Source: an uncultured Alphaproteobacteria bacterium
Lineage (GTDB): Bacteria > Pseudomonadota > Alphaproteobacteria > Micropepsales > Micropepsaceae
Assembly (NCBI GenBank): GCA_903928515.1
Contig: CAIYRG010000426.1
Location: forward strand, 1-33,822
DNA length: 33,822 bases
Direction of reading: 5' to 3'
The notes under the pieces were generated by a model. It did not search any database. It saw nothing but the letters and a program-made list of their open reading frames with translations, and had not been told where the DNA came from. Below are positions 3,307-33,822 of this stretch, in pieces; within the stretch, counting starts at the first letter, position 1, and every line of letters begins with the position of its first letter. The position numbers and the translations under genes are program-made.

Positions 3307-3350
3307 GCTCCGGCAAAAGTGATCAGCATTTCATCAGGAAGGAACGCACA

Positions 3351-4214: not shown

Positions 4215-4236
4215 GCCGGTTCAAAAGGAGGCGAGC

Positions 4237-4584
4237 ATGCGGATCACGCGTTTCGCAGAAGCACCGACATACAATCCGCCGCTGCACACCGGTGTGCAGT
4301 GCAAGCGGCTTCAGGGCCATGAGGCGGGACCGACCGAGAAATTCTGGGTCGGCCTCTCCGTCTATCCCCCCGGAAGCTCGGCGGATGAAAGCACGACCGG
4401 CGAGGAGACCATCTACACGGTTCTCGACGGCGAGCTGGTGCTGCGTTCGGACGGACAGACGCAAACCCTGCGCAAGCTGGATTCCGTGCATTTCAAGAAA
4501 GGCGAGGTGCGTGCCGTAAAGAACGAAAGTTCGGCAGACTCCACGCTCCTCGTCTCCATCGCCATCCCCCAGACCGTCAAATAA
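4237..4584 (+). CDS. Small cupin-domain protein
   Basis: This 115-residue protein starts at ATG 4237 after a textbook ribosome-binding site AAGGAGG (4225-4231), 22 bases past the previous stop. The single-domain beta-barrel pattern is recognisable: PPGSSADESTTGEETIYTVLDGELVLRSDGQ matches cupin motif 1 (G..., E, G) and LRKLDSVHFKKGEVRAVKNESS matches motif 2. The usual His pair of motif 1 is absent (ESTTGEE rather than HxHxxxxE), so a metal-binding role is uncertain. Such small cupins accompany catabolic operons as isomerases, dioxygenase-like enzymes or ligand binders. Upstream in-frame ATG 4135 lies inside the cyclase gene and has no good ribosome-binding site. Confidence 0.75.
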   Translation: MRITRFAEAPTYNPPLHTGVQCKRLQGHEAGPTEKFWVGLSVYPPGSSADESTTGEETIYTVLDGELVLRSDGQTQTLRKLDSVHFKKGEVRAVKNESSADSTLLVSIAIPQTVK

Positions 4585-4599
4585 TCAGGTCGTAAAATA

Positions 4600-11764: not shown

Positions 11765-12744
11765 TGCCCAAGCTCACACTCTCATTCGCCTGCGGCGATT
11801 ATGAGATCATGCGGCCTCTGGTGGATGGCCGCGTGCAGCCTGACGGCATCGAGCTGATTTGCATCACCACGGAATCGCGCGAGCGGCACGCCCGCATGGC
11901 GCGCGAATTCCAGTTCGATGTCTGCGAATACAATGTCGGTTCGTACTTCATGGCGCGCGAGCGCGGCCTGAAATTGACCGCCATTCCGGTTTACGGCCAT
12001 CGCCGTTTCCGCCATGGCTTTGCCTTTGTGAACACAAACGCCGGTATCAAGGCGCCAAAGGATTTGATCGGCAAACGCGTGGGCGGGCCCAGCTTCGCGC
12101 CTGCGGGCTCCATTTGGCTCCGCGGCATCTTGGAAGAACATTACGGCGTGCCGCATCGTGACATGACCTGGGTTGTGGAGCGCGGCGAAGATGTGGATTT
12201 CACACCCCCGCCGGGATTGCGCATCGAACGCATCACGTCCGGCAAACCCGTCGACCAGATGCTGGCCGACGGCGAAATCGATGCGATGATCACACCCGAC
12301 ATTCCGCCCGTGTTCCTGAAAGGCGATCCGCGCGTCGTGCGTCTGTTTCCCGATTATCAGGCGGAAGAACGCAGTTATTTTCAGAAGACCGGCATCTTCC
12401 CGATCATGCACGTCACCGCGATCAAGCAAGAGGTCGTGGACAAGCATCCTTGGGTGCCGATGAATCTGATGAAGGCATTCGAGCAGGCCAAGGCGATGGG
12501 CTACAAGCGCACCGCCAATCCGCGCACGTTGCCGCTCGCGTGGGGCCGCGATCTTTGGGAAAGCGAGCGCGCATTGCTCGGCCCCGATCCCTGGGCTTAT
12601 GGCCTCGGCGAAAAGAACCGCAACAATCTCGAAACCCTCGCGCGCTATCTGCACCAGCAGGGCTTGGTCAAGACGCTGCCCAAGCTCGACGACGTATTCG
12701 AGAATGCCGAATTGAAAGACATGGGCTCCGAGGGAGGGCTTTGA
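11764..12744 (+). CDS. 4,5-dihydroxyphthalate decarboxylase (Pht5)-like, substrate-binding-fold protein
   Basis: This 326-residue protein begins LTLSFACGDYEIMRPLVDGRV, with FDVCEYNVGSYFMARERG, RFRHGFAFVNTNAGIKAPKDLIGKRVG (in parts) and MLADGEIDAMITPD. These match the Pht5 family, which has a periplasmic-binding-protein fold but includes 4,5-dihydroxyphthalate decarboxylase. There is no signal peptide, so it is cytoplasmic and unlikely to be a transporter component; no ABC permease or ATPase gene is nearby. Annotation pipelines often call such proteins ABC substrate-binding proteins. Its place inside an enzyme operon, with one-base overlaps on both sides, supports an enzymatic or chaperone-like role. 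Whether the catalytic residues of Pht5 are kept cannot be judged without an alignment. Confidence 0.75.
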   Translation: MPKLTLSFACGDYEIMRPLVDGRVQPDGIELICITTESRERHARMAREFQFDVCEYNVGSYFMARERGLKLTAIPVYGHRRFRHGFAFVNTNAGIKAPKDLIGKRVGGPSFAPAGSIWLRGILEEHYGVPHRDMTWVVERGEDVDFTPPPGLRIERITSGKPVDQMLADGEIDAMITPDIPPVFLKGDPRVVRLFPDYQAEERSYFQKTGIFPIMHVTAIKQEVVDKHPWVPMNLMKAFEQAKAMGYKRTANPRTLPLAWGRDLWESERALLGPDPWAYGLGEKNRNNLETLARYLHQQGLVKTLPKLDDVFENAELKDMGSEGGL

Positions 12745-15011: not shown

Positions 15012-16348
15012 CGGCACCAAAAGCGGCAATCGAACGCCTTGCAGAATTTCTCTGCCGCCCCGGCATCGCTGCTGCTGCGCCCGATCTTTTACGCCGCCAC
15101 ACCGTAGATATCGCGGGGGCTTGGCTCGCAGGCTCGGCCATCCCGGAAGGCCACGCGGTTTCGCAATTCTTTGGCAGCGACTCGCTAGGCGATCTTCTCG
15201 CGGCCAATGTCGCCGCCGCGCGCTCCAGCGAGATCGACGATATCCATCTGCCTTCGCTCACCACGCCCGGTGCAGCAATCGTCGTCTGCGCCCTCACGAT
15301 TGCCGCGAGGCATGAGGGCGTCGCAGGTAACGATCTCGCCGATGCAATCGCAGGCGGCTATGAGGCGCTAATCCGCCTGGGCCTCGCCATCGACGGCGCG
15401 ACCGTTTCTTCGCGCGGCATATGGCCGACCTATTTCGCGGCCCCCTTCGGCGCAGCGGCGGTCGCGGCGCGACTGTTGAAACTCAGTCCGGCCCAAACCG
15501 CGCACGCGCTGGCGATGACCATCACCATGGCCTCACCCAGTGCGGGCCATCAGCACGGGCCGCTCACCTCACGCTGGCTCGCCTTCGGCCTCGTGGCGCG
15601 CAACGGTCTGACGGCGGCGCAAGCCGCACAAGCAGGCTTCCTTGCCGATCCCGACATTCTGGAAAGCAATTTCCTGAATGCCGCCTACGGCATCAAACCC
15701 GACATTTCCGCCTTCACCCACAACCTCGGACAGCGCCTCGCCATCGAAGATCTTTCCTTCAAGCCATGGTGCGCGGCGCGCCAGACCATCGCCGGCGCGC
15801 AAGCGATGCGTGAGCTGATCGCACAAGGCATCGTGCCTTCGGAAATCGAAGCGTGCGAGATCGCCATCCCACCGCTGCACGTGAAGATGGTGGATCACGG
15901 CGTGCATCCGGGTGACCGCACCTCGCATCTCACCAGCCTGCCCTGTCAGGTCGCACAAGCAGCACTCAACCCCGATAGCGCGATGGATGTGGCGCAGACG
16001 CCCGGCGAAACGCCCGCGCCCATCGCCGCTTTGATGCGCAAAATCACCGTGCACGGTGATGACAGCTTTATGGCGGCCTACCCGAAAGCCTGGCACGCGC
16101 GCCTCACCCTTCACACCAAGAAGGGCACGCACGAGCGCACAATTGCGGCGGTGCCCGGCGATCCCGCGCGTCCCTTCGACGACACCCGGACCCGCCAAAA
16201 ATTCTTAGACCTCACGACCCCTGTTTTGGGCGAAACGGGCGCGAACGAAGCCCTTGCGATAGTTTGGAACGTGTTGAATAACCCTGAGAACGCAAAAATC
16301 ATTCTAAACACCGCATCACAGGCACAGAAAAGGAAGCGTGGCTTATGA
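15008..16348 (+). CDS. MmgE/PrpD family protein
   Basis: This 446-residue protein is an MmgE/PrpD-fold enzyme (2-methylcitrate dehydratase, cis-aconitate decarboxylase and iminodisuccinate epimerase are characterised members). DIAGAWLAGSAI near the N-terminus, GYEALIRLGLAIDG, HAHALAM-type helices (TAHALAMTITMASPSAGHQHG) and the KPWCAARQTIAGAQAM segment are family-like. GTG 15008 overlapping the previous TGA (GTGA) is preferred over TTG 14996. No prpB, prpC or acn gene is nearby, so propionate metabolism is not indicated. In this operon it could dehydrate, epimerise or decarboxylate a carboxylic intermediate. The 3' end overlaps the next gene by four bases (ATGA). Confidence 0.85.
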   Translation: MTAPKAAIERLAEFLCRPGIAAAAPDLLRRHTVDIAGAWLAGSAIPEGHAVSQFFGSDSLGDLLAANVAAARSSEIDDIHLPSLTTPGAAIVVCALTIAARHEGVAGNDLADAIAGGYEALIRLGLAIDGATVSSRGIWPTYFAAPFGAAAVAARLLKLSPAQTAHALAMTITMASPSAGHQHGPLTSRWLAFGLVARNGLTAAQAAQAGFLADPDILESNFLNAAYGIKPDISAFTHNLGQRLAIEDLSFKPWCAARQTIAGAQAMRELIAQGIVPSEIEACEIAIPPLHVKMVDHGVHPGDRTSHLTSLPCQVAQAALNPDSAMDVAQTPGETPAPIAALMRKITVHGDDSFMAAYPKAWHARLTLHTKKGTHERTIAAVPGDPARPFDDTRTRQKFLDLTTPVLGETGANEALAIVWNVLNNPENAKIILNTASQAQKRKRGL

Positions 16349-17325
16349 AGGGCAAGATCGCCGTCGAAGAACATTTTGCCCTTCCCGATATGGAGGTCGC
16401 GAAAGCCAACGGTTTCCGCCCCGAATATCTCGCCAACGTTCTGAAGCGCCTGCCCGATCGCGTGCAGCGCCTGGAAGTGATGGATGAAGTCGGCATCGAA
16501 GTCTCGCTGCTCTCGCTCACCGAACCCGGCACGCAAGGCATCATCGACAAGAAGAAATCCATCGAACAAGCCCAGCGCATCAACGATTGGCTCGCCGAAT
16601 ATTTCGTGAAGTGGAATCCCAAGCGCTTCCAGGGCCTGGGTGTCGTGCCGATGCAAGACCCGGCCGCCGCTGCGCGCGAACTCGAACGCATGGTGAAAGA
16701 TCTCGGCCTGAAGGGCACGATGATCAACGGCTTCTCCAACATCGGCGAAGGCGACGAGATCATGTATCTCGACGAAAAACCGTGCTGGGAATTCTGGGCC
16801 GCCGCCGAGCAGCTGAACGTCCCCATCTCGCTGCATCCGCGCGTGCCATTGCCCAGCCAGCGCCGCTCGATGAAGGATTACGACGTGATCCGCGGCTCTC
16901 TCTGGGGCTTTGGCCGCGAGACCTGCGAGCACGCCATCCGCCTGATGCTGTCGGGCGTGTTCGATCAATATCCCAAAGCCATCTGCGTCTTGGGCCATCT
17001 GGCCGAAGGCCTGATCTTCGCATTGCCGCGCATGGATGCGCGCATGCGCTATCAGGAGCCGGGCACGCATGGCGCACACAAGCGCATGCCGACCGAATAT
17101 TTCCGCGACAATTTCATCATCTCGACCAGCGGCATCACGCACACGCCGGCGATGCACAACGCGCTGATCGAAATCGGCGCGGACAAGCTGATCTTCGCGG
17201 TCGATTATCCGTTCGAATCCTCACACGAAATCTGCGCCTGGTTCGACGCGTTCCCGATCAACGAGGACGACCGTCTCAAGATCGGCCGTCTGAACGCCGC
17301 GAAATACTGGCACATCGCGCTGTAA
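16345..17325 (+). CDS. Amidohydrolase-superfamily decarboxylase (gamma-resorcylate decarboxylase-like)
   Basis: This 326-residue enzyme resembles 2,6-dihydroxybenzoate (gamma-resorcylate) decarboxylase along its whole length. It begins MKGKIAVEEHFALP with the metal-binding Glu8/His10 pair, then GLGVVPMQDPAAAARELERM, the metal His in SLHPRVPLP, the active-site His in CVLGHLAEGL, and the Asp in FAVDYPFES. These are the residues that hold the divalent metal and bind the carboxylate in the ACMSD/gamma-RSD group. Length and organisation match the family (~327 residues). Non-oxidative decarboxylation of a hydroxyaromatic or related acid is likely, but a hydrolase or hydratase role cannot be excluded. 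It is the last gene of the operon. Confidence 0.85.
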   Translation: MKGKIAVEEHFALPDMEVAKANGFRPEYLANVLKRLPDRVQRLEVMDEVGIEVSLLSLTEPGTQGIIDKKKSIEQAQRINDWLAEYFVKWNPKRFQGLGVVPMQDPAAAARELERMVKDLGLKGTMINGFSNIGEGDEIMYLDEKPCWEFWAAAEQLNVPISLHPRVPLPSQRRSMKDYDVIRGSLWGFGRETCEHAIRLMLSGVFDQYPKAICVLGHLAEGLIFALPRMDARMRYQEPGTHGAHKRMPTEYFRDNFIISTSGITHTPAMHNALIEIGADKLIFAVDYPFESSHEICAWFDAFPINEDDRLKIGRLNAAKYWHIAL

Positions 17326-18681: not shown

Positions 18682-20916
18682 ATGGTCGCAACAGGAATTT
18701 CCCGTCGTCATTTCGTGGTGAGTGCGTCCGCGCTCTCAGGCGGACTTGCGCTCGGCGTCAGCACAAAACTCGCAGCAGCAGCGCCCGCCGGCCCTGCCGT
18801 GCATTATTGGGGCCCGGACGCAGCCGAGCCGCGCGAAGTCACGGCATGGGTCTCCATCGCGCCCGACGATATCGTGACATTCCGCTTCGCCATCGGAGAA
18901 GTCGGCCAAGGCTCCTCGACCGGCTGGTCAATGCTGCTGACGGAAGAATTGGAATGCGAATGGTCGAAGGTGCGGTTCGAATGTGCCTCCGCCAATCGCA
19001 ACCTCGCGGGCAAACCCTACGGCACCATCGTCGGCGGCGCGGATAACGGCATCCGCATCTATTGGGCGCTGGTACAGCAGGCCGGAGCATCGGCACGCGC
19101 ACGCTTGATCGCGGCGGCCGCGAAACGCTGGAACGTGGCCGATGCCGATTGCTACGCAGCCAAAAGCAAAGTCTTTCACAAGCCTTCCGCGCGCTCGTTC
19201 CGCTTCGGCGAACTCGCACCTGAGGCTGCCGCTATCGTTCTGGCGAAAGAGCCGGACATCAAACCACCGGAACAATACAAAATCGTCGGCACGCGCCTGC
19301 CGCGCCTCGACACAGCGATCAAGGTCGATGGCTCGGCCGTGTTCGGCCCGGACGTTCGTTTGCCGGACATGCTCTATGCCTCGGTGATAATTTGCCCGGT
19401 GTTCGGCGGCAAGCTCGTTTCCGCCGACGAGACGTCGATCCAAGGCCGTCGCGGCATCGTGCAAGTGGTGAAGCTCGACAATGCGGTCGCCGTGGTCGCC
19501 GACAATTATTGGCGCGCCAACGAAGCATTGAAGGCGCTGAAAATCGTTTGGGATTTCGGCGCGAACGGACACGCCAACAGCGCGCAATACCGCAAGGATT
19601 ACCTCGCAGCACTTGATGCGCCGCAGACGGTCGCGTGCGACATCGGCGATGCCAAGGCCGAATTGGCCAAAGCTGCCAATGTCCTCACCGCCATCTACGA
19701 AGTGCCGCTGCTCTCGCACTCACCGTTGGAAACACCCAATGCGACGGTGCATTTGCAAGCTGACCGGCTCGATGTCTGGATGGGCACGCAGGTCGCCGAC
19801 CGCTTCCTGCAGATGGGTTCGCAGATCACCGGGCTGAAGCCGGAGCAGGTGTTCATCCACAATTGCTATGTCGGCGGCGGCTTCGGACGACGCGGCCCGC
19901 CGGGCGACGATATTCGTTACGCGCTGCTGGTGGCGAAAGCTGTCGGCCATCGTCCCGTGCAAACGTTGTGGACGCGCGAAGAAGACACGCGCAACGATCA
20001 CTATCGCCCGCAAGCTGCGATCCGCCTTAAAGGTGCGCTCGACGCGCAAGGCAATCTTTCCACCTTCCACGCGGAAACCGCGGTGGCGTCCTTGATGGCC
20101 AGCATCACCGGCAAGCCGGTGGAAGGCGTAGAAGTGCATGCGGTGGACGCGCTGGTGCCGGAACGCGAAGACGTGAATTTTATCTCCACGCCGTATAACC
20201 GCATTCCACACCGCTATACGGGGCAAGTGTTGAAGAACACGCATGTGCCTGTGGGCTTCTGGCGCTCGGTGGGCGGCTCCCAAAACGGCTTCGCGCTGGA
20301 AAGCTTTCTTGACGAGATGGCGCACATGGCAGGCAAGGACCCTTTCGCATTCCGCCGCGCCATCACCGACCGTGCCGATGTTCTCACGGTGCTGAAGTTG
20401 CTCGAAGAGAAAAGCGATTGGAACAAGCCGCTACCGAAGGGGCGTGGGCGCGGGCTGGCGCTGATGGAAAATCACGCGTCATTGATCGGACAAGTTCATG
20501 AGGTGACGGTTTGCGATAGTGGCGTGCTGAAGGTCGACAAAGTGACCGCCGTCATCGACACCCACCACATCGTCAACCCGAAGCTGGTCGAAGCCCAAGT
20601 GCAGGGCGGCATCATGTTCGGGCTCTCCGCCGCACTGTATGGCGAGATCACCATCAAAGACGGTGCGGTCGAGCAAGGCAATTTCGACAGCTACCAAATG
20701 GTGCGGCTGGCCGATTCACCAGACGTGGACGTGCATTTCTCGCTGTCGGGAGGATTGGATCGCGATGGCAAACCGCGCTGGGGCGGTGCCGGCGAATGTG
20801 CCGTGTCGCCGGTGGCGCCGGCTGTGGCCAACGCGATCTTCGCGGCCACCGGCAAACGCATTCGCATGCTGCCGATCAAAAATACAAAGCTGACGACTGC
20901 GCTGGCGAATAACTGA
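18682..20916 (+). CDS. iorB: Isoquinoline 1-oxidoreductase-type molybdopterin-binding (beta) subunit, copy 1
   Basis: This 744-residue protein is a molybdenum hydroxylase large subunit of the IorB type, in which the aldehyde-oxidase domains are permuted relative to XdhB/CoxL. The N-terminus has a Tat signal (ISRRHFVVSASALSGG), so it is probably exported folded with cofactor. Characteristic segments are GGGFGRRGPPGDD (molybdopterin contact), FWRSVGGSQNGFALESFLDE, HHIVNPKLVEAQVQGGIMFG and the C-terminal WGGAGECAVSPVAPAVANAI, whose Glu is at the position of the catalytic base. Family members hydroxylate N-heterocycles or oxidise aldehydes. No [2Fe-2S] subunit gene adjoins this copy; the only one is at 21713. 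ATG 18682 places the Tat motif near the N-terminus as expected. Confidence 0.9.
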   Translation: MVATGISRRHFVVSASALSGGLALGVSTKLAAAAPAGPAVHYWGPDAAEPREVTAWVSIAPDDIVTFRFAIGEVGQGSSTGWSMLLTEELECEWSKVRFECASANRNLAGKPYGTIVGGADNGIRIYWALVQQAGASARARLIAAAAKRWNVADADCYAAKSKVFHKPSARSFRFGELAPEAAAIVLAKEPDIKPPEQYKIVGTRLPRLDTAIKVDGSAVFGPDVRLPDMLYASVIICPVFGGKLVSADETSIQGRRGIVQVVKLDNAVAVVADNYWRANEALKALKIVWDFGANGHANSAQYRKDYLAALDAPQTVACDIGDAKAELAKAANVLTAIYEVPLLSHSPLETPNATVHLQADRLDVWMGTQVADRFLQMGSQITGLKPEQVFIHNCYVGGGFGRRGPPGDDIRYALLVAKAVGHRPVQTLWTREEDTRNDHYRPQAAIRLKGALDAQGNLSTFHAETAVASLMASITGKPVEGVEVHAVDALVPEREDVNFISTPYNRIPHRYTGQVLKNTHVPVGFWRSVGGSQNGFALESFLDEMAHMAGKDPFAFRRAITDRADVLTVLKLLEEKSDWNKPLPKGRGRGLALMENHASLIGQVHEVTVCDSGVLKVDKVTAVIDTHHIVNPKLVEAQVQGGIMFGLSAALYGEITIKDGAVEQGNFDSYQMVRLADSPDVDVHFSLSGGLDRDGKPRWGGAGECAVSPVAPAVANAIFAATGKRIRMLPIKNTKLTTALANN

Positions 20917-20930
20917 AGCGCTAGCCCTTC

Positions 20931-21096
20931 ACCATGGCCGCCCTCCGAGGCGGCCACCCAGCAGGCGCGCAATCGCGCGCCAATAACTCTTCTAGGCTCG
21001 CAGACGCTCGCCCCGCGCGGCTTCGCCGCGCAATGAAAATAAGAAGATCGGCGCGCTAAGCGTGCCGTGGGTGGCCGGGCGTGACCCGGCCATGGT
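20931..21096. repeat. REP-like element, second and longer copy
   Basis: The left arm starting ACCATGGCCG at 20931 and right arm ending CGGCCATGGT at 21096 are imperfect inverted repeats related to the arms at 18486-18602. The segment CACCCAGCAGGCGCGC and the following CGCGCCA and AACTC pieces are shared in the same order. This copy carries an additional internal hairpin (CGCGCGGCTTCGCCGCGC at about 21014-21031) and some 50 extra bases. It fills the gap between iorB copy 1 and the convergent CHRD gene and may act as a bidirectional terminator. Confidence 0.75.
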
Positions 21097-21101
21097 CGAG
21101 T

Positions 21102-21656
21102 TTAATTTGGCAACAAATAAATCTGTCCGCGGATTTCGCCATCACGATACAGATCCGTGTGGATGTCGATGTAGAACTGTCCGGCGAGCAATTCCGCGGC
21201 CTGCTCCGGCGTCAACATCAGCGTGCCGCTATAGGGGCCAACATGGCTCGGCTCGTCGCCGATCGGCAATGTCGCGATCACCGGCGCACCCGATTGCAGC
21301 GTGCCGGGCCCGTGAATATCGACGACATTCACCGGCGTCGTCAGCGCGTCGAACGCCAATGAATATCCCAACATTCGGGTTTGATCGTCGAAGGTGAATC
21401 GGCCTGTGCCATACCCCGGCATGCTGGTCGGCGGCGTGCCATCCTGTGTACGCAGCGTTGCGGCAAGGGTGAATGTCCGAGCCTGCACGTCTGACGACGG
21501 GCCGCAAAAAACCACGGCCAGAAAAACGGCCATACTTTGTAAAAGGGTGCGGCGGGAGAGGCGGATAGTACGGTCCTCATATGAACGGCCTGCATGAAAA
21601 TTGCCGCGAAAACCGGGGTTCCGCCAGCCTTCTTTTGGTTCTTTCCAAACTGCCAC
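21102..21656 (-). CDS. Tat-exported CHRD-domain protein
   Basis: This protein of up to 184 residues ends with the CHRD-domain pattern GTLMLTPEQAAELLAGQFYIDIHTDLYRDGEIRGQI (spread over residues ~143-180), found in extracellular and periplasmic proteins of unknown biochemical role. The segment LSRRTLLQSMAVFLAVVF is a Tat-type signal (SRRxLLQ) and a Sec-like hydrophobic core, with cleavage likely near DVQA. The start is uncertain: the only in-frame upstream start is GTG 21656, giving a 30-residue leader before the twin arginines and no clear ribosome-binding site; the internal ATG after LLQS would cut off the Tat motif. It lies between the two iorB genes on the opposite strand. Confidence 0.7.
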   Translation of the reverse strand: MAVWKEPKEGWRNPGFRGNFHAGRSYEDRTIRLSRRTLLQSMAVFLAVVFCGPSSDVQARTFTLAATLRTQDGTPPTSMPGYGTGRFTFDDQTRMLGYSLAFDALTTPVNVVDIHGPGTLQSGAPVIATLPIGDEPSHVGPYSGTLMLTPEQAAELLAGQFYIDIHTDLYRDGEIRGQIYLLPN

Positions 21657-21712
21657 CTGTGCTAAGAAAGTAGCAGTAGAACAGCCCCTTAGAGAGGCCT
21701 CAGGAGGTCACA

Positions 21713-22165
21713 ATGGTCGCTTTGAAAATCAACGGTCAGCTTCATCAGCTCGATATCGAGCCGGATATGCCGCTGCTCTGGGCCATTCGTAACGAGATTG
21801 GCCTGACGGGCACCAAATATGGCTGCGGCATCGCGCAATGCGGTGCCTGCACCGTGATTGTCGACAACCAGCCTGTGCGCTCCTGCTCCCTGCCCGTGTC
21901 GGGCGCAGAAGGCCACGACATCACGACCATCGAAGGCCTCTCGCCGAAAGGCAAACTGCATCCCGTGCAAGCCGCCTGGGTGGCCGAAGATGTGCCGCAA
22001 TGCGGCTATTGCCAATCCGGCCAAGTGATGGCCGCCGTGGCGCTTTTGAAGCAGAAGCCGAAGCCCACGGACGAAGACATAAATACGATCACCAATATCT
22101 GCCGCTGCGGCACCTATGTGCGCATCCGCAAGGCGATCCATCGCGCCGCCGGCCAGAAAGCTTGA
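21713..22165 (+). CDS. iorA: Isoquinoline 1-oxidoreductase-type [2Fe-2S] (alpha) subunit
   Basis: This 150-residue protein is the small iron-sulphur subunit of a molybdenum hydroxylase. The plant-ferredoxin-type cluster ligands are Cys38, Cys43, Cys46 and Cys58 ([15 protein letters not shown]...RSC). The second, alpha-helical cluster uses Cys97, Cys100, Cys130 and Cys132 (QCGYCQSGQ ... CRCGTY). It passes electrons from the molybdenum site to an external acceptor. It has no signal peptide, as expected if exported bound to the Tat-bearing large subunit. It begins with AGGAGG about seven bases upstream and is followed 14 bases later by the second large subunit, so this pair is an intact iorAB operon. 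Confidence 0.94.
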
Positions 22166-22179
22166 GGCGGGAGAGAACC

Positions 22180-24405
22180 ATGGGTGACATGAAACCGATT
22201 GAAGTCTCTCGCCGTCAGCTCGTGCTCACCGGCGCCACGATCGGTGGCGGTATGGCGCTGGGCCTGCTCGTGCCGGGTGCGGCGAAAGCTGCGATGCCGG
22301 AACTGGGCGCGCAATATTGGGGCGCGGACACCGTCAACCCGAACGAAGTGACGGCTTGGGTTGTCATCAATCCCGACAACACCATTGTGTTGCGCTGCTC
22401 GATGGCCGAAATGGGCCAGGGCACCGGCACGGGCTTCCCGATGATCCTCGCGGAAGAATTGGAATGCGACTGGTCGCAAGTGAAAGTCGAATTCCCCTCC
22501 GTAAATCGCAACATCCGCGAGAAGGCCGTCTACAAAGACATGCTCACGGTCGGCAGCCGCGGCATCCGATCATCATGGGAATTCGTGCAGCAGGCCGGCG
22601 CGTCTGCGCGCGTGCGCCTGATCCAAGCAGCCGCCGCGCGCTGGAAGGTCGATGCGTCGCAATGCACGGCATCGAACAGTCTGGTGACGCACATGGCATC
22701 AGGCCGCAAATTCACCTATGGCGTGTTGGCGCATGAGGCAGCCAAGATTCAGTTGGCTGCCGAACCGGCCATCAAGCCGCCGGAAGAATACAAGCTGATC
22801 GGCACGCGAAAGCCGCGTCTGGATTCGGAAATCAAAACCAACGGCACGGCCAAGTTCGGTATCGATACGAAGGAGCCGGGGCAGCTTTACGCCTCGATCA
22901 TGAGCTGCCCCGTGTTCGGCGGAAAGCTGGTGTCGGTTGACGATTCCGCGCTGAAAGGCAAACGCGGCAATCTGCAAGTCGTGAAACTTGCCGATGCCGT
23001 GGCCGTGGTCGCCGACAATTATTGGCGCGCCAATGAAGCATTGAAAGCGCTGAAGATCGTGTGGGATGGCGGGGAAGCCGCCAAGACCGACAGTGCGCAA
23101 TTCCGCAAGGAATACCGCGATGCGCTGGATGGCCCGATGGTCACCGCGCGCAACGATGGCGACGCCAAAGCCGTTCTCGCCAAGAGCACACGCGTGATTA
23201 CCGTGGATTACGAAACGCCGCACCTGGCGCATGCCACGATGGAGCCGTGCAACGCGACGGTGCACCTGCAACCCGACCGTCTGGATATCTGGATGGGTTC
23301 GCAGTCTGCGCTCGAAAACGCGAAGATGGCGGCCGAGCTTGCGGAGATGAAGCCCGAGCAGGTTTATTTCCACCAGCAATATCTCGGCGGCGGTTTTGGC
23401 CGTCGTTCGTTCGGTGACGAACTCAAGCACGCGGTTCTGGTTGCCAAGACGGGCAACATCACCAAACCGCTGCAGCTTCTGTGGTCGCGTGAGCAGGATA
23501 TGCGCGCCGACCGTTATCGCCCGCAATCGGCCATCCGCATGAAAGCCTCGTTGACGGCCGATGGCACGCTGGAAGCAATCCACGTCGAAAGCGTGTGCGG
23601 CTCGATCATTCGCTCCACCGGAATCAACCGCGCGGAGAACGGCTTGGATGGTCCCGCACTGGAAGGCATTGGACCTTCGGTGCCCTACAACAAGGTGCCC
23701 AACTGGTACACGGGCCTGATGTTGAAGAACACGCATGTGCCGGTCGCTTTCTGGCGCTCGGTGGGCGGTTCGCAGAACTGCTTCTACATGGAGAGCTTCA
23801 TCGACGAACTGGCGCACGCTGCCGGTAAGGACCCCATGGCCTTCCGCCGCGAACTGACCGACCGGCCGGATTCGCTTTCGGTGTTGAACAAGCTGCAGGA
23901 GGTGAGCGGCTGGGGCACGCCGATCGGTGCGGGTCGCGGGCGTGGCATGTCGCTCGTCGACAATCATGGCGCCGTGGCCGGCCATGTCGCCGAAGTGACG
24001 GTGGACGACAAAGGCCAGGTGCGCGTGGACCGCGTTTATGCCGCGACCGATGCCTATCACGTGGTGAATCCCAATCTGGTGGAAAGCCAGATCGAGGGCG
24101 GCGTGATCTTCGGCATGACCGCGATGATGTATGACGAAGTCACCATCAAGAATGGTGCGGCCGAGCAGAGCAATTTCGACAGCTACCAAATGGTGCGCTT
24201 GGCCGATGCGCCGGACGTGCACGCCCATCTGGCGCTCACCGGCGGCAAAGACGACAAGGGCAAACCGAAATGGGGCGGCGTGGGCGAATGTTCTGTCGCC
24301 CCGGCGGCGGCGGCGATTGCCAACGCCATCTTCGCGGCCACGGGAAAACGCATTCGTTCACTGCCCTTCAAGAACGTGAAGCTCTCGGAGCTGGCGGCCC
24401 TCTAA
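22180..24405 (+). CDS. iorB: Isoquinoline 1-oxidoreductase-type molybdopterin-binding (beta) subunit, copy 2
   Basis: This 741-residue paralogue of the protein at 18682 aligns with it over its whole length. Its Tat motif is VSRRQLVLTGATIGGG, and it shares YLGGGFGRRSFGDE, FWRSVGGSQNCFYMESFIDE, YHVVNPNLVESQIEGG and WGGVGECSVAPAAAAIANAI with the catalytic Glu. ATG 22180 is used, with GGCGGGAGAG just upstream. Being directly downstream of iorA, it is probably the cognate large subunit. Copy 1 may compete for the same small subunit, giving two enzymes with different substrate range. The natural substrate is unknown; hydroxylation next to a ring nitrogen would fit the Hyu-type ring opening encoded upstream. 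Confidence 0.92.
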   Translation: MGDMKPIEVSRRQLVLTGATIGGGMALGLLVPGAAKAAMPELGAQYWGADTVNPNEVTAWVVINPDNTIVLRCSMAEMGQGTGTGFPMILAEELECDWSQVKVEFPSVNRNIREKAVYKDMLTVGSRGIRSSWEFVQQAGASARVRLIQAAAARWKVDASQCTASNSLVTHMASGRKFTYGVLAHEAAKIQLAAEPAIKPPEEYKLIGTRKPRLDSEIKTNGTAKFGIDTKEPGQLYASIMSCPVFGGKLVSVDDSALKGKRGNLQVVKLADAVAVVADNYWRANEALKALKIVWDGGEAAKTDSAQFRKEYRDALDGPMVTARNDGDAKAVLAKSTRVITVDYETPHLAHATMEPCNATVHLQPDRLDIWMGSQSALENAKMAAELAEMKPEQVYFHQQYLGGGFGRRSFGDELKHAVLVAKTGNITKPLQLLWSREQDMRADRYRPQSAIRMKASLTADGTLEAIHVESVCGSIIRSTGINRAENGLDGPALEGIGPSVPYNKVPNWYTGLMLKNTHVPVAFWRSVGGSQNCFYMESFIDELAHAAGKDPMAFRRELTDRPDSLSVLNKLQEVSGWGTPIGAGRGRGMSLVDNHGAVAGHVAEVTVDDKGQVRVDRVYAATDAYHVVNPNLVESQIEGGVIFGMTAMMYDEVTIKNGAAEQSNFDSYQMVRLADAPDVHAHLALTGGKDDKGKPKWGGVGECSVAPAAAAIANAIFAATGKRIRSLPFKNVKLSELAAL

Positions 24406-27594: not shown

Positions 27595-29118
27595 CTACTT
27601 ACCTTCAAGAAACCACTCGCCGTTGGGTTTGCGGCCCACGATTCCTTGGTCTTGCAGTGTGCCTAGCTCTACGGCGATGGCACGGCCGTCTTTGTCGCCG
27701 AGCGCATCCATCAGCCCCATGAAGAATTTGGGGCCGCTTTCCAACGCTTCGCGCACCGACGCCGCCTTTTTCCCACCGGAGATGCGCGGCGAATAGGACG
27801 ACCAATGAATCAGATCGTCCGGCTCGCTCAAATCGCGCGTCATGTCGAAACCGGCGACCGATTGCTCGCCGTGGTCGCTGGTGGGGTCCATCGTCAGCGT
27901 GCGGTGGCCGTGCTCGACAATAAGGTCTTTGCCCACGCGGAAGCGCGTGCACATGGCGCGTTCCACCTCGCCATCGGAAAACACGTCGATATCCTCGTCC
28001 ACCACGAACACATGCTTGACGAGCGGCCGCTTGAGCAGCGCCTCAACCGCCTTGCGCCCGTCACCGGCCTGCTTCTGGCGGATGGCCGCACGGATGTGGT
28101 GCATGCCCACGGCCGAGGGCGGCGCATGTACCGCCTGCACATCCAGCCCCGCGTCTTTCAGCGCGTTCCAGGCCTTCACTTCGGCATCCAGCCCCGACAT
28201 ATGCGCCGCATCGTTGCGGGTGAGAATCTGCCCGCCATGCAGCAACGTGTGATGCAGCACGTCTTTGCGCATGGTGATCGCCGTCACATGGAACAGCGGA
28301 TCGGGGTGCATGGGGCCGTAAAGCCCATACAGCTCGCCGTAGGGGCCTTCGATTTCGGCGTAACCGCGCTCGTCGAAATAGCCTTCGATCACCAACTCGG
28401 CATCGGCGGGCACAGGAATATCGTTCGAGACGCTTTTCACCATCGGCATGGTTTCACCACGCAATTGCGCCACCAACTCGAATTCGTTGACGGGCAGACG
28501 GATGGCCGCACCCAAACACACCAGCGGATGCGCGCCCACGACGAAGCTGACAGGCAAAGTCTCTTTGCGTTCCACAGCTTCCAGATAGATGCGCCGCAAA
28601 TCGCTGATCTGCGTGAGGTTCGCGCGCATGGTGCGCTTGCCCTTCAGCATCAGCCGCCGGAAGCCGACATTCGGTTTGCCGCTCTTCGGATCAACCGTGA
28701 AATCCATCGCTGCCGACAGATACGTCGCGCCATCCAATTCGTGCTGCAGATAGAAGGGCAGCTTGGCGAGATCGATATCATCGCCGGTGATCACCACCTG
28801 CTGCACCGGCGCCTCAACGCGCGATACCTCCGCGACTTCCTGCGGCGTGGCGAGGCGGCGCATATATTCCTGCTGAAGCTCAGCCTCGGAGCAGCCGAAC
28901 GCCATCGCCAGCCGTTTGCGGCTCGCCATTATGCCCGCGGTCATCTCGAAATGCTCAGGCCCCACATCCTTGAACCACGTCGCCTTCGGCGTGGCTTCGA
29001 TCAGGGCTGCGAGATCGATCAGTTCGACATGTTCGTTGTGAACTTCCACCTCGCCCGCTTGCACCAAGCGATTCAGGAAGTTGCGCAGGCGATATTTTTC
29101 GTAATCGAACTCAGCCAT
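27595..29118 (-). CDS. UbiD-family (de)carboxylase
   Basis: This 507-residue enzyme is a prenylated-FMN-dependent decarboxylase of the UbiD family. It opens LRNFLNRLVQAGEVEVH, with LPFYLQHELDGATYLSAAMDFT, the VVGAHPLVCLGAAIRLP segment, EIEGPYGELYGLYG (the conserved acidic active-site region), HTLLHGG and the C-terminal KHVFVVDEDIDVFSDGEVE. Length fits the family (~480-510). It needs prenyl-FMN made by UbiX, which is not encoded in this window. Family members decarboxylate, or reversibly carboxylate, aromatic, heteroaromatic and alpha,beta-unsaturated acids. It is the last gene of the minus-strand operon, 18 bases after the hydratase gene; its stop codon is TAG. Confidence 0.93.
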   Translation of the reverse strand: MAEFDYEKYRLRNFLNRLVQAGEVEVHNEHVELIDLAALIEATPKATWFKDVGPEHFEMTAGIMASRKRLAMAFGCSEAELQQEYMRRLATPQEVAEVSRVEAPVQQVVITGDDIDLAKLPFYLQHELDGATYLSAAMDFTVDPKSGKPNVGFRRLMLKGKRTMRANLTQISDLRRIYLEAVERKETLPVSFVVGAHPLVCLGAAIRLPVNEFELVAQLRGETMPMVKSVSNDIPVPADAELVIEGYFDERGYAEIEGPYGELYGLYGPMHPDPLFHVTAITMRKDVLHHTLLHGGQILTRNDAAHMSGLDAEVKAWNALKDAGLDVQAVHAPPSAVGMHHIRAAIRQKQAGDGRKAVEALLKRPLVKHVFVVDEDIDVFSDGEVERAMCTRFRVGKDLIVEHGHRTLTMDPTSDHGEQSVAGFDMTRDLSEPDDLIHWSSYSPRISGGKKAASVREALESGPKFFMGLMDALGDKDGRAIAVELGTLQDQGIVGRKPNGEWFLEGK

Positions 29119-29136
29119 TGCCGTAGCCCCGGTGGG

Positions 29137-29880
29137 TCAGTGTTTGCCGCGCATCTCGCTCGACGTGTTGATGGTGGCGTGCAGATTGCGCGCGAAATCG
29201 TTGGCGCCTTGCGCGTCCATCGTGCGCGCCGCGCGGGCAAATTCCTTCACGCCGAACAAAGCGGGCGGTGCGATGGCCAGCATCTTGGCGACGAGGCCCT
29301 CGACCGTGGCATGCAGGCTGCCGCCCGCCGCCACCTTGCTGACCAAACCGATGCCGAGCGCCTCTTGCGCCGTCAGCATCTCGGCCGAATAGAACATGTA
29401 CATCAGCGGCTTCAGCGCCACGCGATCCACCATCGAAGACATTGCCATGGTCGGCATGATGCCATGCGCGGTTTCCGGGAATGCGAATTGTGCATCGTGA
29501 TCGGCCACGGTGATATCGGCCACCGCCGTGAGCGCGCAGCCGAAGCCCAGCGCCTTGCCCTGCACTGCCGCCACAACGGGAGCATGCGAGCGGCGGAATG
29601 CGCCATAGGCGTTGAAGATCACTTCGTTCTGCCGGCGCAGCGCCAAGGCTTCGGGTGCGGCTGCTGTGGCACCCGCTGTGGGGCTCATCATCGCGCGCCC
29701 CAAGCAGAAATCGTTGCCAGCGCCGGAGAGCAGGATCACGCGCGTGGCATCGGAGACCGTGCCGATGATCTCACCCAATTCCTTTGCCATCGCGTCGGTG
29801 AAGCGATTGCCTTCGTTGGGGCGATTCAGCGTGACGCGCAGCAGCGCGCCATCCTGTTTGACATCGATCTCTGCGCTCAT
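29137..29880 (-). CDS. Enoyl-CoA hydratase/isomerase family protein
   Basis: This 247-residue crotonase-fold protein starts at ATG 29880, eight bases after the stop of the upstream CoxL-like gene, with AAGGAT upstream. The oxyanion-hole segments LLSGAGNDFCLGRA and VQGKALGFGCALTAVADITVA (in parts) are clear, and FAFPETAHGIMPTMAM holds one acidic residue at a usual catalytic position. It could hydrate an enoyl-CoA or act as an isomerase, dehalogenase or ring-cleaving hydrolase. Its operon with a hydroxyacyl-CoA dehydrogenase supports CoA-ester metabolism. No CoA ligase or thiolase is present in the window to complete such a route. Confidence 0.9.
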   Translation of the reverse strand: MSAEIDVKQDGALLRVTLNRPNEGNRFTDAMAKELGEIIGTVSDATRVILLSGAGNDFCLGRAMMSPTAGATAAAPEALALRRQNEVIFNAYGAFRRSHAPVVAAVQGKALGFGCALTAVADITVADHDAQFAFPETAHGIMPTMAMSSMVDRVALKPLMYMFYSAEMLTAQEALGIGLVSKVAAGGSLHATVEGLVAKMLAIAPPALFGVKEFARAARTMDAQGANDFARNLHATINTSSEMRGKH

Positions 29881-29888
29881 GACTTCGC

Positions 29889-32279
29889 CTATCCTTGAGA
29901 TTGTTTCGAGTCTTGAATGAGCCGCCACACGCGCTCCGCACTGGCGGGCATTTCCACGTGCGTGATGCCGAATTCCGACAGCGCATCGACCACGGCATTG
30001 ATGACGACAGCGAGCGCCGGTGTTGTGCCGCCTTCACCGCCCGCGCGCACGCCGAGCGGATTGGAGGGCGACGGCACTTCCGAGAGGCCTGTGTCGAACG
30101 AGGGCAATTTGTCGGCGCGCGGCATGGCGTAATCCATGAACGAGGCCGTCAGCAGCTGGCCCGAGTCGGGATCGTAGATCGTGTGTTCCCACAAAGCCTG
30201 GCCGACGCCCTGCACGATTCCGCCATGCGTTTGCCCATGCAGGATCAGCGGATTGATCGCGTGGCCGACATCATCCACCGCCGCGTAGCGCACCAGATCC
30301 ACCACACCGGTTTCGGGATCGATTTCCACCTCGGCCACGTGGCTGCCATAGGGGAAACCGCCGGCGGTGAATTTCACATCGGCCTCGGCGGCAAACCGGC
30401 CTTTCAGATTTTCGGGCAGATCGGCGCGCTCGTTCGCGGCCTGCGCCACATCGAACAGGCCAATGAATTTGTTGGTGTTGGCGACGAAGAAACGCCCATC
30501 GGCAAAATCGACGGTATCTTCCGGCGCATCCAAAACATGCGCGGCAATGGTTCGGCCGCGCGCGATCACCGCCTCGGACGCCCGGCCCATCGCCACGCCC
30601 GCCATGCGCATGGAGCGGCCCGAATGCGAGCCACCGCCCACCGGCACGCGATCCGTGTCGCCCTGCACGAGACGCACCTGATTGAACGGCACACCGAGCC
30701 ATTCCGACACGCATTGCGTGAAGCTGGTCTCATGGCCCTGCCCGCTGGACAGCGTGCCGACCGCCACATCCACCATGCCTTCGGCATGCACCACCACTTC
30801 CGACCATTCGCGCGGATAGCCCATGGTGAGTTCGATGTAATTGGCAACGCCGATGCCGCGCACTTTGCCGCGCGCTTTGGCCTCAAGCTTGCGGGCCGCA
30901 AAGCCATCCCAATCGCCGAGCTTCAGCGCGTCGTCCATCACGCGCTCATATTCGCCGTTGTCGTAAGTGACTCCGGTGGGATTTGTGTAGGGCAGTTCTT
31001 CCGGCGCAATGAAATTCCGGCGGCGAAGCTCGATAGGATCGATGCCGGTTTTGTCCGCGGCCATGTCGATGAGGCGTTCGAGGATAAACATCGCCTCGGG
31101 GCGGCCAGCGCTGCGATAGGGAATCGTCGCAGGCGTATTCGAGACGACAGCTTGCGCATGCACGTAAGCGACGGGGACTTTGTAGACGCCCGAAAGGATG
31201 CCGATGCCTTTGCGCAACGGAATGAACGACGAGGCATAGGCGCCAAGATTGGAGCAATTGCTGCCGCGCATGGCGAGGAATGTGCCGTTCGCATCCAGCG
31301 CCAATTCCATATGCGAAAGCAGATCGCGGCCCTGGTGATCGCTGACAAAGGCTTCCGAACGATTGGCCGTCCACTTCACAGGGCGGCCCACTTTCTTCGA
31401 GGCCCAGGCGGCAAACGGAAATTCGGGGAAGATGGAATTCTTGGTGCCGAAATTGCCGCCGATGTCTTCGGCGACAACCCGCACTTTATCCTCGGGCACG
31501 CCGAGCACGCCTGCGATCTCGCGCTTCTGGCGCACGACGCCGCCGCTGCCCGCATAGACGAGATAGCGACCCGTTTCGGGATCGTAGTGGCCGGTGACAG
31601 AGCGCGCTTCCATCGGCACGCCGGTGACGCGCTGAATCCAGGTATTCAAGCGCACCACGTGCGCGGCGCGCGCGAAGGCGGCTTCGGTGGCTTGCTTGTC
31701 GCCGATGGGGCAATCGAAACATTGGTTGCTGGCAGCACCTTCCCAGACAACAGCCGCGTCTTTGTCTGCGACAGTCGGCGTTGCGGTGGCGGAGGGCAAC
31801 GGATCGTAATCGACGTAGATACGCTCGGCGGCATCCGCCGCTTGATAGGGCGTTTCCGCCAGCACGGCGGCCACCGATTCACCGACGAAGCGCACGCGCC
31901 CTTGCGCCAGCAACGGATAGGGCGAGTCATATTCGAGAAGCGGCACGCCTTTGGAATTCACCAGGATCACGTCGGGCAGCGCCCGCATCATCTCGACCGT
32001 GCCGTGCATAGCGAAATCCGACGGGAGCGGCTTCACGCCATCGGCCAGCAAATCCTCGCCGGTGAACACCGCGACGACGCCGGGCATGTCGCGCGCTTCC
32101 GAAATGTCGATGGCATTGATGGCGGCATGGGCATGCGGCGAGCGCGTGAACGCCGCATAAACCTGATTGGGGAGATTGTGATCGTCGCTGTAACGGCCAC
32201 GGCCGACGATCAGCCGCGAATCCTCCTTGCGGCGGACCGGCTGTCCAATACCAAAACCGTTGGGGTCCGTCCCCGTCAT
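29889..32279 (-). CDS. CoxL-like molybdopterin-binding subunit of a xanthine dehydrogenase-family enzyme
   Basis: This 796-residue protein is a molybdenum hydroxylase large subunit of CoxL/XdhB order. It begins IGQPVRRKEDSRLIVGRGRYSDD, contains VRFVGESVAAVLAET, DIGGNFGTKNS (molybdopterin contact), PYRSAGRPEA (residues ~387-396) and the C-terminal GEGGTTPA with the catalytic Glu (~749). True CO dehydrogenase has AYRCSFR with a Cys that binds Cu; here the loop is PYRSAGR, so it is not a CO oxidiser but a form-II-like hydroxylase of unknown substrate. It has no Tat signal and is presumably cytoplasmic. Its usual FAD (CoxM) and [2Fe-2S] (CoxS) partners are not within the window. The stop is TAG, eight bases before the hydratase start. 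Confidence 0.9.
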   Translation of the reverse strand: MTGTDPNGFGIGQPVRRKEDSRLIVGRGRYSDDHNLPNQVYAAFTRSPHAHAAINAIDISEARDMPGVVAVFTGEDLLADGVKPLPSDFAMHGTVEMMRALPDVILVNSKGVPLLEYDSPYPLLAQGRVRFVGESVAAVLAETPYQAADAAERIYVDYDPLPSATATPTVADKDAAVVWEGAASNQCFDCPIGDKQATEAAFARAAHVVRLNTWIQRVTGVPMEARSVTGHYDPETGRYLVYAGSGGVVRQKREIAGVLGVPEDKVRVVAEDIGGNFGTKNSIFPEFPFAAWASKKVGRPVKWTANRSEAFVSDHQGRDLLSHMELALDANGTFLAMRGSNCSNLGAYASSFIPLRKGIGILSGVYKVPVAYVHAQAVVSNTPATIPYRSAGRPEAMFILERLIDMAADKTGIDPIELRRRNFIAPEELPYTNPTGVTYDNGEYERVMDDALKLGDWDGFAARKLEAKARGKVRGIGVANYIELTMGYPREWSEVVVHAEGMVDVAVGTLSSGQGHETSFTQCVSEWLGVPFNQVRLVQGDTDRVPVGGGSHSGRSMRMAGVAMGRASEAVIARGRTIAAHVLDAPEDTVDFADGRFFVANTNKFIGLFDVAQAANERADLPENLKGRFAAEADVKFTAGGFPYGSHVAEVEIDPETGVVDLVRYAAVDDVGHAINPLILHGQTHGGIVQGVGQALWEHTIYDPDSGQLLTASFMDYAMPRADKLPSFDTGLSEVPSPSNPLGVRAGGEGGTTPALAVVINAVVDALSEFGITHVEMPASAERVWRLIQDSKQSQG

Positions 32280-32323
32280 TGCCCCACTTCCCCGACCTTA
32301 TTGTTTTTGTTTTAGAACCGAAA

Positions 32324-32338
32324 TTTGTCCCGGACAAA
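32324..32338. promoter_or_regulatory. TTTGTCC-C-GGACAAA palindrome upstream of the CoxL-like gene
   Basis: A perfect 7-bp dyad with a single central base lies in the 93-base gap between the dehydrogenase stop and the CoxL-like start, about 45 bases before the latter. A related half, CGGGACAGAAATTTC at 32360-32374, is an inverted near-copy of GAAATTTGTCCCG (32320-32332), so the sites may pair into a larger operator. It is the only sizeable gap in this operon and could hold an internal regulated promoter. Confidence 0.45.
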
Positions 32339-32372
32339 CGCCGGTGGGAATAGGAATTGCGGGACAGAAATT

Positions 32373-33296
32373 TCAGGTCTTTTTTGCAGCAGTCTCGGCG
32401 GCCGAGCGCGCCATAAATTCCTTGAAGCGCACGCGCACGGCTTCGGCCTGCTCCGGCGTCCACTCCCGGAAGCCCTTGCCGGTTTTCATGCCCAGCTCGC
32501 CCTTGGCGACCAGCGCATCGAGATAGGGATGCGTGACGGGCGTGACATCCAGATACGGCATCAGCACGTCGTGGATATCCTTGGTGAGGTTCAGACCCAC
32601 CATGTCGGATTGTTCGAGAGGCCCCAACACGGCTAGGCGCGCGCCGAAGCCAAGCTTCACCACATCGTCCAGCGCTTCGGCGTCGCACACGCCCGCCGCG
32701 ACGAGCGCAATCGCTTCGCGCTTGAGCGCGTGCTGCATGCGGTTGCCGATGAAACCGGGAATGTCGCGCTTTACCAGAACGGGGTGACGGCCGATGGCGC
32801 GCAACGACGCCATCATGGATTGCGCGGCGGGGAGATTGTCCGGCGTCATCGTCACCACTTCGACCAGCGGCACGAGATGCGGCGGATTCCAGAAATGCGC
32901 GCCGACGACGCGCGATTTGTTCGTGATGTCGCGGCAAATCTCGGTGATCGGAATGGCCGACGTGTTGCTGGCGAGGATGGCGTCGGGGCGTGCGTGCTTT
33001 TCCAGCGCGGCAAAGATGGATTGCTTGAGCGGCAGTTTTTCGGGTGCGGCCTCGATAATAAGCGCGGCATCGGCCACCGCGTCTTTCAAATCGGCGTGGC
33101 CTGAAACGCGCGCTGTTGCCGAATGATCGGTTTTCAACAGATCGCAGATCTCGCCGATGCGTTTGGGGAGTGCTTCCAGCGCGGACGGAACAGGGTCGTG
33201 CACGCGCACCGTATGTCCGGCGTTGGCGAACAGATACGCGATGCCGTGGCCCATGAGCCCGGCGCCGATGATGGCGATGGTGTCTTTGCCGCTCAC
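32373..33296 (-). CDS. 3-hydroxyacyl-CoA dehydrogenase family protein (second copy)
   Basis: This 307-residue paralogue of the protein at 2410 has the Rossmann loop GAGLMG at 11-16, Asp34 at the NAD-selecting position, SNTSAIPITEI, the catalytic His134 in GAHFWNPPHLVPLVEV, DIPGFIGNRMQHALKREAIAL and GMKTGKGFREW. Start is GTG 33296; its ribosome-binding site is weak, and it follows the small membrane protein by 18 bases. The two copies are clearly related but diverged, especially in the C-terminal substrate domain, so they probably act on different 3-hydroxy substrates. It is cytoplasmic and likely supplies a 3-keto product to the same pathway as the hydratase downstream. Confidence 0.9.
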   Translation of the reverse strand: MSGKDTIAIIGAGLMGHGIAYLFANAGHTVRVHDPVPSALEALPKRIGEICDLLKTDHSATARVSGHADLKDAVADAALIIEAAPEKLPLKQSIFAALEKHARPDAILASNTSAIPITEICRDITNKSRVVGAHFWNPPHLVPLVEVVTMTPDNLPAAQSMMASLRAIGRHPVLVKRDIPGFIGNRMQHALKREAIALVAAGVCDAEALDDVVKLGFGARLAVLGPLEQSDMVGLNLTKDIHDVLMPYLDVTPVTHPYLDALVAKGELGMKTGKGFREWTPEQAEAVRVRFKEFMARSAAETAAKKT

Positions 33297-33314
33297 TTCA
33301 AAAGCATCTCGATC

Positions 33315-33590
33315 TCATTCCTCATCACGAGGAGGAGCCATGCCGCCGTAGATACGGCCTGCGGCCGAGTAGAGCGCCAGGAGCCCGAACTCGATCAACA
33401 CAATCTTCCCCGGTTCCATACCGTGTTCTTTGTAGTAAAAGGCCGTGCCGACTAGCGCTGCTACACCTGCGAACCAGCCGACGACAAAGATTCGTCCTTG
33501 AATATTGTTTGGACGAATGCGGCGAAACGGTCCCCAACGAAACCACGGTTCCTTAGCGTAGCCGCGATTGCGTTCCCAAAAATCGCGCAT
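33315..33590 (-). CDS. Small two-helix membrane protein of unknown function
   Basis: This 91-residue protein has a basic N-terminal ~30 residues rich in Arg and Trp, then two predicted membrane segments, IFVVGWFAGVAALVGTAFYY (~34-53) and IVLIEFGLLALYSAAGRIY (~64-82), and a short charged tail ending PPRDEE. I do not recognise a family. It lies between the SDR and the dehydrogenase gene in the same orientation, 24 bases after the former and 18 before the latter, so it is probably cotranscribed. Codon use is a little less GC-rich than the enzymes around it. The ribosome-binding site (GAGG) is close to the ATG. Confidence 0.6.
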   Translation of the reverse strand: MRDFWERNRGYAKEPWFRWGPFRRIRPNNIQGRIFVVGWFAGVAALVGTAFYYKEHGMEPGKIVLIEFGLLALYSAAGRIYGGMAPPRDEE

Positions 33591-33614
33591 GTGCCTCGCC
33601 CAAACAGTGCTGCA

Positions 33615-33822
33615 TCACCCAGCCGTGTAGCCGCCATCGACATACATGACCTGGCCGGTGCAGAAGTCGGAGGCTGGCGACAGCAGGTAGATCGCCATGC
33701 CCATCAGATCTTCCACCTCGCCCAAGCGCTTTAACGGAATGCGCGAGAGCGAACGGGCGCGCGTCGCTTGGCCCACTTCGCTATCGCCCCACATCCATTC
33801 GGTGAGTTGCGAGCGGAAGACC
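33615..33822 (-). CDS. Short-chain dehydrogenase/reductase, C-terminal part only
   Basis: The last 68 codons of an SDR are present on the minus strand; the rest lies beyond the window. The end VDGGYTAG and the segments SRIPLKRLGEVEDL and FCTGQVMYVDGGYT are typical of the classical SDR C-terminus. By eye about 38 of these 68 residues equal the corresponding part of the amber-interrupted SDR at 1628-2416, including VFRSxLTxWM, which is a distinctive shared substrate-loop feature. It is the first visible gene of the minus-strand operon. Confidence 0.88.
   Translation of the reverse strand, partial: VFRSQLTEWMWGDSEVGQATRARSLSRIPLKRLGEVEDLMGMAIYLLSPASDFCTGQVMYVDGGYTAG

Follow-up and report, generated by a model that had tools for sequence, protein, structure and literature searches.

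The minus-strand gene string at positions 27595-33822 of the 33,822-nucleotide contig analysed here (the whole stretch being the window) is probably an accessory catabolic operon for an aromatic or heteroaromatic carboxylic acid, combining a UbiD-family decarboxylase with a CoxL-type molybdenum hydroxylase large subunit and a crotonase-fold protein of the ECH family, and as such a variant of the clusters of UbiD and molybdenum hydroxylase known from the hmf furan pathway. The link of this UbiD to the molybdenum hydroxylase and the crotonase is more than chance. As UbiD, a molybdenum hydroxylase, and an ECH-family protein occur together in the described hmf cluster (PMC12064950), the kind of system is already known. 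For the ~507-residue UbiD subfamily, its neighbours, or an orphan CoxL with UbiD, no description was found in the open literature, most subscription papers being outside the scope of the search.

The gene string and its UbiD

In the order of transcription the string reads SDR, a 91-residue membrane protein, HCDH, CoxL, ECH, and UbiD, with intergenic gaps of 24, 18, 93, 8, and 18 bp, and the predicted layout from SDR to UbiD, with neighbours 8–93 bp apart, is operon-like. The sequence-only reading that preceded this analysis had described the same minus-strand string with small gaps, and both its open reading frames (ORFs) and its families were confirmed, as follows:

27595..29118, minus strand: UbiD-family prenylated FMN (prFMN) decarboxylase of the ~507-residue subfamily (UbiD_N/UbiD/UbiD_C)
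29137..29880, minus strand: crotonase-fold protein (ECH_1, 109 bits)
29889..32279, minus strand: CoxL-type molybdenum hydroxylase large subunit, orphan (MoCoBD_1/2 and hammerhead domains)
32373..33296, minus strand: 3HCDH-family NAD dehydrogenase, nearest to 5-formyl-3-hydroxy-2-methylpyridine-4-carboxylate (FHMPC) dehydrogenase (3HCDH_N/3HCDH)
33315..33590, minus strand: predicted membrane protein of 91 residues, without a Pfam or NCBIfam match
33615..33822, minus strand: SDR family oxidoreductase, 3′ end only owing to the contig end (adh_short_C2, 46.5 bits; stop at 33615)

The start of ECH is taken as the ATG at 29880, 8 bp past the CoxL stop, with a longer ORF start at a GTG not adopted. 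Scans of the string for promoters and terminators gave no signal above chance, and the 91-residue membrane protein has no counterpart among the loci of the relatives. The window is the entire contig C426 of a metagenome-assembled genome (MAG; G000) of 3.09 Mb, which is 90% complete and divided into 524 contigs, so that the 5′ part of SDR and anything upstream of the string are cut off. Misbinning of the contig was considered and rejected, as its PRPP synthase is 84–88% identical to that of genomes of the same genus, which argues that the contig belongs to its bin.

The three domains of the window UbiD (PF20695, PF01977, and PF20696) all score above cut-off, and the protein passes the general model TIGR00148 (251 bits, cut-off 244.9). 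Residues N150, R155, H197, E245, E257, and E262 correspond to the E-R-E triad and the metal ligands N, H, and E, with the triad and the ligands N and E found in all 83 subfamily sequences and the ligand H in 76 of the 83. The active-site residues that the sequence-only reading had singled out for checking are thus in place, and with a UbiX gene on contig C213 of the same MAG (59% identical) the UbiD is intact. A second UbiD of the MAG lies on a separate contig, C285.

The best profile match of the window UbiD is HmfF (306 bits, compared with 226 for E. coli UbiD), which is also the nearest fold (6h6v, TM 0.79/0.90) to its AlphaFold model (pLDDT 91). AnInD (indole-3-carboxylate decarboxylase) and VdcC/D (vanillate decarboxylase) share the UbiD fold and the E-R-E site, but their profile and fold scores are weaker than those of HmfF. 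The protein falls far under the cut-offs of the NCBIfam equivalogs VdcC, SCO4490, PpcA/B, E. coli UbiD, and BagN, with the VdcC model scoring 184 bits against a cut-off of 650. Identity within the ~507-residue subfamily is 40–58%, drops sharply below the plasmid relatives at 42–45%, and is 30% to the UbiD of an hmf-type plasmid cluster. Judged by identities and profiles rather than by a joint tree with HmfF, the window UbiD is a member of a distinct subfamily, apart from HmfF and the other characterised UbiDs. What was found is not a clade unrelated to catabolism, the outcome named in the sequence-only reading as counting against it. Three different members of the subfamily (L010, L049, and L072) come from one Rhodospirillales MAG (Umea2 bin-0321).

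Linkage to CoxL and ECH in other genomes

A scan of genome contigs for UbiD gave 80 loci, which together with plasmid records and genome G210 resulted in 82 relatives with neighbourhoods. Within 9 kb of UbiD, CoxL is present at 28 of the 82 loci, ECH at 22, and both at 17, with a hidden Markov model search of the retrieved stretches detecting CoxL in about 30 loci. Outside the Burkholderiales, UbiD and CoxL are separated by 3 kb or less at 16 of the 17 CoxL loci, where 30% would be expected (binomial p ~5e-8), and at 10 of the 11 with roughly full flanks (30% expected; binomial p ~5e-5). Loci with both UbiD and CoxL span Alpha- and Betaproteobacteria, Myxococcota, and Eremiobacterota, and the order CoxL-ECH-UbiD is identical in the window, in another alphaproteobacterium (L032), and in Burkholderiales. 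The window CoxL is nearest to the orphan copies at L014, L021, and L032 (56–63% identity), with the window ECH showing the same pattern (46–52% identity to the ECH of these three loci). At L035 and L057, two different CoxL genes flank UbiD, one on each side.

Two types of locus can be distinguished. Type A, found in Burkholderiales (Paraburkholderia, Caballeronia, Cupriavidus, and Massilia), has the order UbiX-FMO-VOC-FAH-hydrolase-CoxM-CoxG-CoxS-CoxL-ECH-UbiD, in which the hydrolase is of the alpha/beta kind, and type B, in which the retrieved flank holds CoxL but neither CoxS nor CoxM, comprises the window and 17 other loci. The UbiD, CoxL, and ECH of the window belong to the same families as those of type A (45, 43, and 37% identity respectively) and lie in the same order, however type A has a complete molybdenum hydroxylase, an FMO, and a fumarylacetoacetase, which the window lacks. 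The fumarylacetoacetase is genuine (401.8 bits, cut-off 375.3), whilst the best match of the FMO, scored on the homologous protein of Neorhizobium, is 3-hydroxybenzoate 6-monooxygenase at 301 bits, under the cut-off of 459. In Paraburkholderia largidicola (L006, 2985-4225) the type A FMO is annotated as two hypothetical proteins, two overlapping ORFs being its two halves, and may be frameshifted; it is intact at other loci.

The type A copy of Paraburkholderia adjoins aromatic-acid symporters, and recurrent neighbours of the UbiD loci include TctC/NMT1-type receptors and a LigXa-type Rieske oxygenase (11 loci). Aromatic-acid MFS transporters and other Rieske oxygenases are also present in the neighbourhoods of the relatives, with a two-subunit ring-hydroxylating dioxygenase near UbiD at L014. 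Together, these transporters, receptors, and oxygenases, and the fumarylacetoacetase, point to a pathway that breaks down aromatic or heteroaromatic acids.

The orphan CoxL and its electron-transfer partners

The window CoxL has homology to CoxL/QorL over its whole length and keeps the GQG and Mo-site Glu749 motifs, sharing the MoCo motifs and catalytic Glu of the large subunits of Mo-Cu CO dehydrogenase and quinoline 2-oxidoreductase. Unlike CO dehydrogenase, it has PYRSAGR in place of YRCSFR, and is by motif not a form I CO dehydrogenase; it also differs in having neither CoxS nor CoxM beside it. No CoxM scored over the cut-off anywhere in the MAG, which has five CoxL-type genes and five [2Fe-2S] Fer2_2 genes (on C304, C426, C209, C323, and C231), all five of the latter adjoining IorB-type molybdenum genes and none a CoxL-type gene. 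The CoxS profile also matches CoxG (L006, 7841-8302), and that match was discounted.

A mere gap in the MAG as the explanation for the missing CoxS and CoxM is weakened by the 99% complete genome G294 of the same genus, in which 8 of 11 CoxL-type genes also have no CoxM within 6 kb. The same is the case for 31 of 53 CoxL-type genes in the L021 genome and 9 of 16 in that of L014, and the orphan state of CoxL seems general, not special to UbiD. Across the survey (G000, G289-G294, G748, G749, and G750), CoxL-type genes are much more numerous than CoxM genes, with 53 versus 21 in G750 and 11 versus 4 in G294, and many CoxL copies lack a CoxM within 6 kb. On a tree, orphan CoxLs are mixed in among complete ones, with at least 4 changes, suggesting kinship with ordinary hydroxylases and a possible reliance of the orphans on borrowed partners.

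One [2Fe-2S] protein is encoded in the window itself:

21713..22165, plus strand: [2Fe-2S] small subunit of IorB-type genes (Fer2_2, 99 bits at 21926-22141; CoxS profile, 153 bits)

We infer that this protein could serve the orphan CoxL as a partner in trans. It is the one IorA-type gene of the region 18682-24405, where it overlaps the second of two IorB-type molybdenum subunits (55% identical to each other) at the latter's longer ORF start. Elsewhere, a locus of Neorhizobium petrolearium (L110, NZ_CP123001.1) has a divergent UbiD and a UbiX between or near two CoxLs, followed by SBP, CoxG, CoxS, and CoxM, and this single CoxS/CoxM set with two CoxLs is consistent with the sharing of partners. 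Plasmids of Sinorhizobium/Rhizobium (L114-L116) carry a CoxL-CoxG-CoxS-CoxM part, with a second CoxL on L115 and L116.

Proposed chemistry, alternative readings, and significance

In the accessory catabolic operon proposed here, UbiD would remove a ring carboxylate, as the chemistry of its family suggests, using prFMN made by the UbiX of contig C213, and the CoxL-type subunit would hydroxylate the ring or an aldehyde. As no partner is encoded beside CoxL, its electron-transfer partners would be supplied in trans. The crotonase, which is missing a catalytic Glu and whose gene comes right after that of CoxL in many lineages, would isomerise or hydrolyse the product of CoxL instead of serving as a 2-enoyl-CoA hydratase, whilst HCDH and SDR may provide a lineage-specific, NAD-linked dehydrogenation, oxidising side-chain alcohols or aldehydes. 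Furan, indole, pyridine, and phthalate substrates were considered, but none was adopted.

The sequence-only reading had proposed that ECH and HCDH carry out steps resembling beta-oxidation, and UbiD could accordingly start the degradation of a CoA-bound aromatic, with ECH and HCDH performing a modified beta-oxidation of the dearomatised ring. Whilst the window has both the ECH_1 and the 3HCDH Pfam families, and 8 loci share an AMP-binding ligase family, this is unlikely. The first catalytic Glu of the crotonase is Ala in the window and Ala, Ile, Leu, or Val throughout the family, with the second Glu retained, which argues against a canonical 2-enoyl-CoA hydratase; crotonase-fold proteins without the first Glu fit isomerases or hydrolases. 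The closest solved relative of the HCDH is FHMPC dehydrogenase (PDB 4om8, 177 bits, with the next at 147), a non-CoA enzyme of vitamin B6 degradation, and its best NCBIfam match is the corresponding FHMPC_DH model. That function is not assigned, since the score of 231.8 bits lies under the cut-off of 500; no equivalog or subfamily cut-off was reached by the HCDH. A close relative of the HCDH is found at one other locus only (L011), and the window genes scanned include neither a CoA ligase nor an acyl-CoA dehydrogenase or thiolase. Of the earlier proposal, the ring-acid operon of UbiD with a molybdenum hydroxylase is upheld, with aromatic-acid neighbours in the relatives, and the beta-oxidation steps are not supported. 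The very unlikely alternative of an hmf-type furan dicarboxylate or furoate pathway would make UbiD, CoxL, and ECH equivalent to HmfF, HmfA, and HmfE, with the rest lost with the missing part of the contig. These three functions co-occur in the described hmf cluster (HmfABCDE, HmfF, and HmfG of Cupriavidus basilensis and Pseudomonas umsongensis), which unites UbiD, UbiX, a molybdenum large subunit, an ECH-family protein, and transporters, and in an hmf-like plasmid cluster (L111), and HmfF is the nearest solved structure by sequence and fold. However, the window UbiD and CoxL are only 30% and 31% identical to their counterparts in the L111 cluster, compared with the 40–58% found inside the UbiD subfamily. 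Furthermore, His297, which confers furan specificity on HmfF (PMC7976604), aligns with Ala304 of the window UbiD and, in almost all the relatives, with Thr, Ser, or Ala (His in 1 of the 83), an alignment of moderate certainty with a gap nearby. No HmfB/HmfC-type FeS or FAD subunit and no CoA or AMP ligase adjoins the genes of the string, the upstream end of which is, however, cut by the contig end.

It is distinctly unlikely that the CoxL-ECH pair is independent of UbiD, with the two merely co-located in catabolic islands. More than half of the UbiD relatives have no CoxL in the retrieved flank, some genomes are very rich in CoxL (53 CoxL-type genes in 5.5 Mb), and Neorhizobium galegae (L109, CP090555.1, 7007-10091) has an orphan CoxL, 51.5% identical to that of the window, ~10 bp from a crotonase, without UbiD and near a gentisate 1,2-dioxygenase. 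In contrast, the gaps between UbiD and CoxL cluster at 0–3 kb instead of spreading over 10 kb, the gene order is kept between the window, L032, and Burkholderiales, and divergent UbiD subfamilies also adjoin molybdenum hydroxylase genes. Alternatively, the orphan CoxL and the crotonase could form a two-protein system without [2Fe-2S] or FAD subunits, such as a redox-neutral molybdenum hydratase or transhydroxylase passing its product directly to the crotonase, while UbiD takes off the carboxylate. Such a system is quite improbable, and if true would be a new use of the xanthine-oxidase fold.

Several points weigh against the accessory catabolic operon. Neither the CoxL nor the ECH family is found in the retrieved flank at 49 of the 82 loci, many of these flanks being short, and the string contains no ring-cleaving enzyme or transporter, its upstream part being cut by the contig end. 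A CoxL without CoxS and CoxM is unusual for a hydroxylase, and UbiD enzymes can also carboxylate. SDR and HCDH are shared with one relative only, L011 (83% identity over 68 residues and 56% identity respectively), and therefore look like lineage additions. UbiD searches of the order (96 genomes), a sample of the class (289), and a sample of the phylum (399) returned a single relative, G210, in the class sample, with none in the 95 other genomes of the order, leaving confirmation at the level of the lineage missing. The best match of the window CoxL in its own order is only 50–52% identical, and with neither a close CoxL orthologue nor a UbiD relative in the order, the operon looks like an accessory acquisition.

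A few other features of the window and of plasmid loci touch on these enzymes. On the plus strand, the stretch 2410-5415 holds a second HCDH, 46–48% identical to that of the operon, and after it the genes of a cyclase-family protein and of a BKACE enzyme; a similar cyclase lies beside UbiD, SDR, and HCDH at L011. The hmf-like cluster of the Cupriavidus oxalaticus conjugative plasmid L111 (NZ_CP032520.1, 7926-17218) is seemingly whole, with UbiD, UbiX, MoCo large, FAD, and FeS subunits, an AMP ligase, and ECH, and a Paracoccus plasmid (L113, NZ_CP102354.1, 5921-17128) carries another UbiD subfamily with UbiX, amidohydrolases, XdhC, and a complete molybdenum hydroxylase. The sequence-only reading had counted three unrelated decarboxylase candidates in the window, of which UbiD holds and the other two, on the opposite strand, go back to family resemblance. 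The gene at 11764-12744 (plus strand) matches only NMT1-type binding-protein models and that at 16345-17325 (plus strand) only Amidohydro_2, both being without an NCBIfam name and sitting among hydantoinase, M24, and PrpD genes. Their products may be decarboxylases, as a guess at the level of the family, with nothing tying them to the UbiD operon.

The recurrence of orphan CoxL bears on how such molybdenum proteins shed electrons, and on whether redox chemistry happens at all. UbiD enzymes are sought after as reversible carboxylases, with substrates known for few subfamilies. The ~507-residue subfamily is widespread, has an intact active site, and is repeatedly tied to a molybdenum hydroxylase, and, as it occurs in Paraburkholderia, Caballeronia, Cupriavidus, and Neorhizobium, all of them cultivable, simple tests of growth and of knockouts could reveal its substrate.

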